Of a DNA stretch of 64,000 nt, positions 14,269 to 52,320 are shown one piece after another. The first letter of the stretch is position 1. Every line of letters begins with the position of its first letter. Under the pieces are notes generated by a model. That model made no database searches. It saw only the letters and a program-made list of their open reading frames with translations, and was not told where the DNA came from. The DNA is from Cystobasidium ongulense (Eukaryota > Basidiomycota > Cystobasidiomycetes > Cystobasidiales > Cystobasidiaceae): contig BQUP01000009.1 in assembly GCA_022835595.1 (NCBI GenBank), positions 124,001 through 188,000 on the forward strand, read 5' to 3'. A program made the position numbers and the translations under genes.

Positions 14269-16739
<2,471 letters not shown>

Positions 16740-51019: not shown

Positions 51020-52320
51020 TTAGATACCACAGCCGGGGTTGTTCTTCGAGCGGGTGTTGAGGATCTGTTCATGTGGAAGAAACGCGTTAGCCGAATGAAG
51101 GTAGATTGCTCTTGTGGAATTGACTTGCAAGAGCGACGATAAGGCCGTACAGACCCAAAACTTCGGCGAAAATGAGGATAAGAATCATTCCGACGAAAAG
51201 ACGTGGTCTGGGGAGAAGATGTAAGAGGAGAGAAGCCAAGAATCAGACATAGAGACTATGATTGCTCAGAAACGCATGCCAAGACGCACTGTTGGGCTGT
51301 TCCTCGAACACCTGCATCTCCGACGATACCGATAGCGAATCCAGCAGCAAGACCAGCGAGACCGACGGAAAGGCCGGCACCGAGCTGAATGAAGCCGGAG
51401 TACAGAGGCATGGGCGAGATGACTGAGAGGAACACAATTGTCAGCTCTTGATTTGAAAGGTTACGAGTGGTCCCAGTATGCTCACTATCTCCGGAAATGA
51501 GGACGGCGACGACGAGACCATCTGGGGCAAAGTGTGCGTGTTAGCTGTGGACTAGGATGCATGTAGTGTACTCGTTTTCCCGCTCACAAATCTGCAGTAT
51601 CGTAGAGAACGAATCAGTCATGTTCTGCGCTCTACAAACGTGGTTCAAACTGAGTGCTCACAGCAATGATACCCGCCATGACGACTGGAATGATACACTT
51701 CATCATGAGATCAGGACGTAGGACACCCATAGCCGAGATACCGACCTGTATATGAGAAGGGAGAATGTGAGCGATGCATGGTCAGTCTTGTGCTTCTCTA
51801 TGGTGACAAGCAGCAAAGGCGCTGTTGAGGTAACGATTCCACTCACGCCAGACTTGGAGGTACCATAACTAAAGAGTAGTGGATAGCATTAGCAGAGTGT
51901 ACGAGGTGAAGTCATCGTATTGTAGCTAACCTGGCACCAATGCCTGCAGTGGACAATGAACATGCATCATCAGCCTCGCTGTCCCGAACAGCCTTTCGCA
52001 CCCACGCAAGCAGGCGAGCTCAGCGCACCAGGCACTTTGCCCGCCCTGCCAGCGAGGTTCAAGACGACGTACAAGTCAGACTGATAGCTGCTGTGCAGCC
52101 CATGGCACCGAAGAAGGGCGCATAGATGGGGCAGAGTTCGGAACTGTGCGAGCGGGGTGCGCGATAGGTTGGTTCGTTGGATGCATGCGATGGCGATGAC
52201 GGCGCGAGCATGGATGGACGGGTCACACAGGCCAGAGAGCGGTTCGTGGAGGGCGAGGGAGACACAGAGTCAGCTTTAGCATACGTGTGCAGCCTCGTGC
52301 ATGGTGGATACGCACGTCAT
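51020..52320 (-). CDS. VMA3: V-type proton ATPase proteolipid subunit c
   Basis: Ten exons can be placed to the base: 52316-52320, 52073-52143, 51931-51943, 51847-51868, 51662-51745, 51588-51591, 51486-51521, 51290-51422, 51129-51207 and 51020-51064. They sum to 492 nt, 163 residues plus stop. The protein reads [20 protein letters not shown], then [79 protein letters not shown], and [20 protein letters not shown] with the essential proton-carrying Glu in helix 4. Four helices in two repeats form the rotor ring of the vacuolar ATPase. Exon 1 has 5 coding nt, exon 6 has 4 nt, and the last intron is GC-AG. All junctions are forced by the highly conserved protein. Confidence 0.95.
51588..51591 (-). 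other. 4-nt internal microexon of V-ATPase subunit c
   Basis: The sense-strand tetranucleotide ATTT lies between CTGCAG (acceptor, 51592-51597) and GTGAGC (donor, 51582-51587). It supplies the Ile codon and the first base of the Tyr codon in GIIA-I-Y-GLVV. Leaving it out would shift the frame and lose two residues that are conserved in the family. Confidence 0.85.

Follow-up and report, generated by a model that had tools for sequence, protein, structure and literature searches.

A probable 4-nt internal coding exon in the V-ATPase subunit c gene of Cystobasidium ongulense

The window analysed here is a 64,000-nt stretch of the Cystobasidium ongulense assembly GCA_022835595.1 (contig BQUP01000009.1, positions 124,001 to 188,000 of the forward strand), and coordinates refer to it unless a contig is named. 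Its minus strand carries, from 52320 to 51020, a gene for V-ATPase subunit c with ten coding exons, whose lengths from 5′ to 3′ are 5, 71, 13, 22, 84, 4, 36, 133, 79 and 45 nt. Together they sum to 492 nt and, once joined, translate into a single 163-residue protein followed by a stop codon. The exons and the introns discussed below are:

52316..52320, minus strand: exon 1, coding part (ATGAC, with the start codon), placed by eye outside the coverage of the spliced aligner
52073..52143, minus strand: exon 2, 71 nt, from the gene model and the spliced aligner
51931..51943, minus strand: exon 3, 13 nt, from the gene model and the spliced aligner
51847..51868, minus strand: exon 4, 22 nt, from the gene model and the spliced aligner
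51662..51745, minus strand: exon 5, 84 nt, 3′ end encoding ...MAGIIA (GGT ATC ATT GCT), phase 0, from the gene model and the spliced aligner
51592..51661, minus strand: intron 5, 70 nt, GTGAGC...CAG, CTGAT as branch motif (A at −23), from the sequence
51588..51591, minus strand: exon 6, putative 4-nt microexon ATTT (Ile codon and base 1 of a Tyr codon), from the aligner, enumeration and shuffles
51522..51587, minus strand: intron 6, 66 nt, GTGAGC...CAG, CTAAC as branch motif (A at −20), phase 1, from the sequence
51486..51521, minus strand: exon 7, 36 nt, starting AT|GGT (bases 2 and 3 of the Tyr codon), from the gene model and the spliced aligner
51290..51422, minus strand: exon 8, 133 nt, from the gene model and the spliced aligner
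51129..51207, minus strand: exon 9, 79 nt, from the gene model and the spliced aligner
51065..51128, minus strand: intron 9, 64 nt, GC-AG (GCAAGT...CAG), from the gene model and the spliced aligner
51020..51064, minus strand: exon 10, 45 nt including the stop codon, from the gene model, with the aligner spanning its first 15 to 18 nt

The gene model and its splice signals can be read directly from the DNA. Introns 5 and 6 both have GT-AG ends and each contains a branch motif of the form CTRAY. At 4 nt, with GT-AG introns on both sides, exon 6 lies within the limit of 15 nt by which we define a microexon between two standard-ended spliceosomal introns. On its minus strand the window contains the string CTGCAG|ATTT|GTGAGC a single time, and the surrounding stretch, 51480-51760, is single-copy in the assembly, where its one match is itself.

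Among PDB entries, the predicted protein matches subunit c of 3j9t best (233 bits), which we take to be yeast Vma3. Its scores against subunits c′ (189 bits) and c″ (at most 79 bits) identify it as c rather than either of these. It further matches TIGR01100 with 169.2 bits (cut-off 61.45) and, in two stretches, PF00137 (Pfam ATP-synt_C) with 115.1 bits (cut-off 24). The original prediction that ten exons totalling 492 nt complete the family sequence is thus borne out by the 163-residue product and both family models. Glutamate E138 of the last helix, presumably the proton-binding residue, is invariant in an alignment of four sequences.

Exon 6 falls into a conserved stretch of the protein. GIIA closes exon 5 in phase 0 and AT|GGT opens exon 7, while the PDB chains and the c′ paralogue read GIIA(I/V)YGLVV; a transcript without ATTT would thus lack the codon for Ile as well as base 1 of that for Tyr. 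In the four-sequence alignment I63, I64, A65, Y67 and G68 are invariant and I66 is replaced by valine in the c′ paralogue, while GIIAIYGLVV is identical in the five PDB chains for which alignments were printed. Exon phases and PDB chains concur with the earlier claim that the protein needs exactly an isoleucine and one further base between the GIIA exon and the Tyr exon. The paralogue, which lies on contig 10 and has c′ as its best PDB match (199 bits, versus 187.6 for c), encodes GIIAVYGLVV inside one unbroken exon, with no intron between these codons. A search for subunit c in genome contigs gave 51 pattern matches and one relative, on contig L005, which reads GVVGIYGL and has no intron at this point either; in viral contigs, none of the pattern matches to a single-protein query (5) or to the four-sequence alignment (57) was a relative. 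Contig L005 (JAIYDP010000099.1) is filed under a Verrucomicrobiaceae MAG, yet its V-ATPase subunit c gene is of eukaryotic type and seems to have introns, as 594 bases were matched for 157 residues; the contig is therefore probably contamination.

For the spliced alignments we used a home-made aligner with no information beyond BLOSUM62 and simple splice rules. It chose the 4-nt exon unaided with two outside queries, subunit c of 3j9t and subunit c of 7u8o, the latter presumably from a mammal. Forbidding the acceptor of this exon lowered the score from 558.5 to 509.5 with the first query (a loss of 49) and from 524.5 to 475.0 with the second (a loss of 49.5). We also enumerated one- and two-intron splicings of 51745-51486, in which donors were GT or GCAA, acceptors AG and introns 40 nt or longer. 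This yielded 159 + 1268 = 1427 candidates, and the 120 that were in frame and contained no stop were scored. The ATTT model came out on top with 132, followed at 110 by a solution in which VSTQFEPH replaces IY; larger middle exons between exons 5 and 7 were rejected on the same grounds, the ATTT model having outscored all frame-keeping candidates.

As a control for chance, the interior of the composite intron was randomised with its dinucleotides kept, and with 6 bases at the donor and 30 at the acceptor held fixed. The observed score was reached in none of 2000 shuffles. The same protein was restored, at a lower splice score, in 19 of the 2000 (1%), and we count these against the exon. Compared to 117 introns of 17 other aligned genes, the donors of introns 5 and 6 lie at the 11th and 21st percentile and their acceptors at the 46th and 12th. 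Of the splice sites around exon 6, three out of four are hence weak for this genome, so that the exon does not stand out as particularly well marked. Of the 117 introns, 84 have a CTRAY motif between −55 and −12. Judged on the sequence, the best gene model by a wide margin is the one with a 4-nt internal exon, located exactly where the original prediction had placed it, at 51588-51591 between CTGCAG and GTGAGC, and aligner, enumeration and shuffles agree on this position. We consider it very probable that the V-ATPase subunit c gene uses ATTT (51591-51588) constitutively as an internal coding exon of 4 nt.

The closest competitor to this model dispenses with the microexon and assumes that a single intron is removed, with the usual acceptor but with its donor displaced to GTTTGT at 51639. 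Its reading frame would stay open, and among the 12 one-intron solutions that preserve the frame it ranks first, but it scores 110 against 132, its donor is outside the twelve commonest of our survey, and it replaces the (I/V)Y of the four aligned proteins by VSTQFEPH, eight residues of which several are polar; we regard it as very unlikely. A different objection is that an assembly error creates the need for the four bases and that the true gene has a plain intron. One-base errors are common in some long-read assemblies, but here an error would have to delete the exact four-base motif at the junction while AG|ATTT|GT with flanking branch motifs arose by chance (0 of 2000 shuffles), and it would have to do so in a region that is single-copy in the assembly. 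This makes an assembly error extremely unlikely.

It is also conceivable that the exon exists as a regulated switch, skipping of which destroys the message and so tunes the amount of subunit c. If exon 6 is skipped, a 140-nt intron is removed between exons 5 and 7 and the frame shifts; within the 488 nt of joined exons, translation would then stop at nt 385-387, 56 nt ahead of the last junction (443), and the product would be deprived of the conserved last-helix glutamate. A composite intron of 140 nt is within the 5-95% range of the survey (61-209 nt), so that skipping is physically possible, and both the premature stop ahead of the last junction and the three weaker-than-average splice sites would suit a switch. 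On the other hand, the distance of 56 nt is near the limit for nonsense-mediated decay, which lies 50-55 nt before the last junction, the V-ATPase rotor subunit is constantly needed, and an unsystematic look at the sequence brought no sign of regulation to our notice. We therefore deem a regulated switch unlikely. As its length is not a multiple of three, exon 6 is unusable as an in-frame optional insert, and because skipping shifts the frame, its inclusion must be nearly constant. Retention of either intron 5 or intron 6 leads to an early stop.

How a constitutive exon of four bases would be spliced can be outlined from its introns. At 70 and 66 nt, introns 5 and 6 are shorter than the survey median of 80 nt (n=125; minimum 57), and each has its own donor, branch motif and acceptor, from which we infer intron definition, as the original prediction had done. 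In this mode splice sites are paired across the intron, and efficiency is set by the length of the intron and not of the exon, according to the excerpted text of PMC8624252. Each flanking intron would be recognised across itself, with a bridge from U1 at its donor to its own branch-point and U2AF complex. Exon 6, which encodes Ile66 and begins the Tyr67 codon in GIIA-(I/V)Y-GLVV, would never be measured or bridged, and its length would hardly matter. Simultaneous occupation of both sites is improbable on an exon of four bases, so that the introns would probably leave sequentially, in either order. With introns that are short even by the standard of this genome, ordinary intron definition would suffice as an explanation.

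The available passages of PMC8378409 report that, in C. elegans, microexons with flanking introns of ordinary size depend on PRP-40 and that shortening the intron relieves this dependence; cross-intron bridging is a model that its authors there call speculative. Since a short flanking intron relieves the dependence in that system, the V-ATPase c exon may need no special help. Intron definition is likewise invoked for the PRP-40/PRPF40A-dependent neuronal microexons described in those passages, which differ from ours in being alternative, animal and set in longer introns. Strict recursive splicing, by contrast, requires that a 5′ splice site be regenerated at the junction (AG|GT), whereas here four bases intervene. 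Intron 6 has its full donor from the outset and each of the two introns is complete in itself, so that either could go first. We therefore depart from the original prediction where it suggested recursive removal of a composite intron.

To place exon 6 in its genomic context, we surveyed the assembly (19.77 Mb, 19 contigs), locating conserved genes with housekeeping queries. Twenty genes were aligned, namely 17 that were fetched, the c′ paralogue and two from the window; GAPDH, Rab7, RPL23 and histone genes were also located, and seven further loci fetched, outside this aligned set. Arf1, whose result varied with the settings, and CypA, which had a frameshift, were excluded, which left 18 genes without frameshifts, subunit c included; two PP2A-like loci aligned initially were left out of the exon count. 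Five of the 18 alignments (EF1A, c′, alpha-tubulin, 14-3-3 and ATP synthase beta) contain two or three protein gaps, and that of CDK1 spans residues 1-264 of 290. The 18 genes have 107 internal exons with a median length of 65 nt. Eight of these measure at most 10 nt, a number that includes the V-ATPase c exon and a 1-nt candidate in beta-tubulin, 12 at most 15 nt and 24 at most 27 nt. The remaining exons of up to 10 nt are listed with their shuffle controls, where "score" is the number of shuffles reaching the observed score and "protein" the number restoring the same protein:

Rab11 (L088): CAACC, 5 nt; score 0/500, protein 3
Ran (L068): ATATCG, 6 nt; score 0/400, protein 1
Calmodulin (L069): TCTGAAG and GACAAGG, 7 nt each; score 1/400 and 0/400, protein 0 and 0
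Beta-tubulin (L072): ACAAACTG, 8 nt; score 0/600, protein 0
EF1A (L077): CGTCGTCGT, 9 nt; from the spliced alignment

The shuffle controls cover the exons of subunit c, Rab11 and Ran, the 7-nt exons of calmodulin and the 8- and 1-nt exons of beta-tubulin. Calmodulin has a further internal exon of 12 nt.

The shortest candidate of the survey is found in the beta-tubulin gene (contig 6, 1420586-1421579), whose first exons are 9, 11 and 8 nt long and would be followed by one of a single nucleotide. The phases of the 8-nt exon (end in phase 1) and of the next clear exon (start in phase 2) leave MREIVHLQTGQCGNQ one base short. This base could be supplied by a G at contig 6 position 1421197, between CTGCAG and GTATGT, which would complete a glycine codon spread over three exons (MREIVHLQT-G-QCGNQ). 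A human beta-tubulin query finds this model, with a score of 196.0 versus 177.5 without the 1-nt exon. Shuffles reached the score in 4 of 2000 cases and restored the same protein in 195 of 2000; in a smaller run, the numbers were 1 and 23 of 150. There is a second AG|G|GT at 1421147, in poorer surroundings, and a single base missing from the assembly would remove the need for the exon altogether. The 1-nt exon is thus a candidate, for which the evidence is weaker than for ATTT. In the accessible text of PMC3036848, a rust beta-tubulin gene has first exons of 14, 19 and 16 nt; the finely split 5′ end is a feature shared by both genes, but none of the exons given for the rust gene is shorter than 14 nt.

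With eight of 107 internal exons at or below 10 nt in 18 genes, and with published exons of 4 and 1 nt, the rarity of such exons was overstated in the original prediction. The available passages of PMC8831610 describe a 4-nt microexon in a rice gene, validated by RT-PCR, as well as 1-nt microexons in plant APC11 and VPS55. Like the V-ATPase c exon, the plant microexons in these passages are tiny, one of them exactly 4 nt, are often missed by annotation and damage the protein when omitted; they differ in having RNA-seq and RT-PCR support and, for APC11 and VPS55, wide conservation. A fungal parallel is the 1-nt exon of Fusarium CYP621A, which its authors (PMC12940212) call the second for any gene and the first in a fungus. 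It resembles the V-ATPase c exon in lying within a conserved motif, in being essential for the frame, in having a composite intron about twice the usual length and in the route by which it was inferred; it differs in its length (1 versus 4 nt) and in belonging to a Fusarium P450 gene, and it is confirmed by 18 RNA reads and by orthologues.

P450 genes of Phanerochaete chrysosporium have many small introns and microexons according to the excerpt of PMC1184071, and their shortest exon as given there, at 6 bp, is longer than the 4-nt exon of V-ATPase c; both are fungal microexons. The excerpt of PMC11121469, which calls work on microexons in fungi limited, describes a microexon in Xlr2 of Trichoderma virens that acts as a regulated switch of protein isoform, whereas skipping of the V-ATPase c exon, likewise fungal, breaks the frame. 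The passages seen of four further papers (PMC3990503, PMC8022950, PMC4014442, PMC3936741) give only mapping settings or mapping performance for short exons. Our literature search, which lay mostly outside subscription papers, found no report of a V-ATPase c gene with a 4-nt exon. This exon adds to an already known, little-explored kind.

There is about an even chance that this genome treats exon length as almost free. Its housekeeping genes would then be routinely split by exons of 1-9 nt, including the 1-nt exon of beta-tubulin, its spliceosome would work by intron definition without a lower bound on exon size, and the V-ATPase c exon would be one of many. If this is true, the spliceosome uses intron definition to its physical limit. 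A 4-nt exon in an essential proton-pump gene would offer a clean test of the smallest exon that a spliceosome handles, and as its small genome has several more tiny exons in conserved genes, the species could serve as a compact model for studying if exon size has any effect under intron definition, in which order introns leave, and if splicing there calls for bridging factors like Prp40. Even in the most conserved proteins, exons may be lost when genomes of this type are annotated automatically.

The tiny exons of Rab11, Ran, calmodulin and EF1A seem to lie near the 5′ end of their genes, an uncounted impression. The window also contains, on its minus strand, the gene for mitochondrial ATP synthase beta (14305-16364), whose shortest internal exon in the alignment is 29 nt. 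Intron 9 of the subunit c gene has the sole GC donor among the 125 survey introns, in a survey made with an aligner that disfavours GC donors, and the excluded Arf1 model likewise had a GCAAGT donor candidate.
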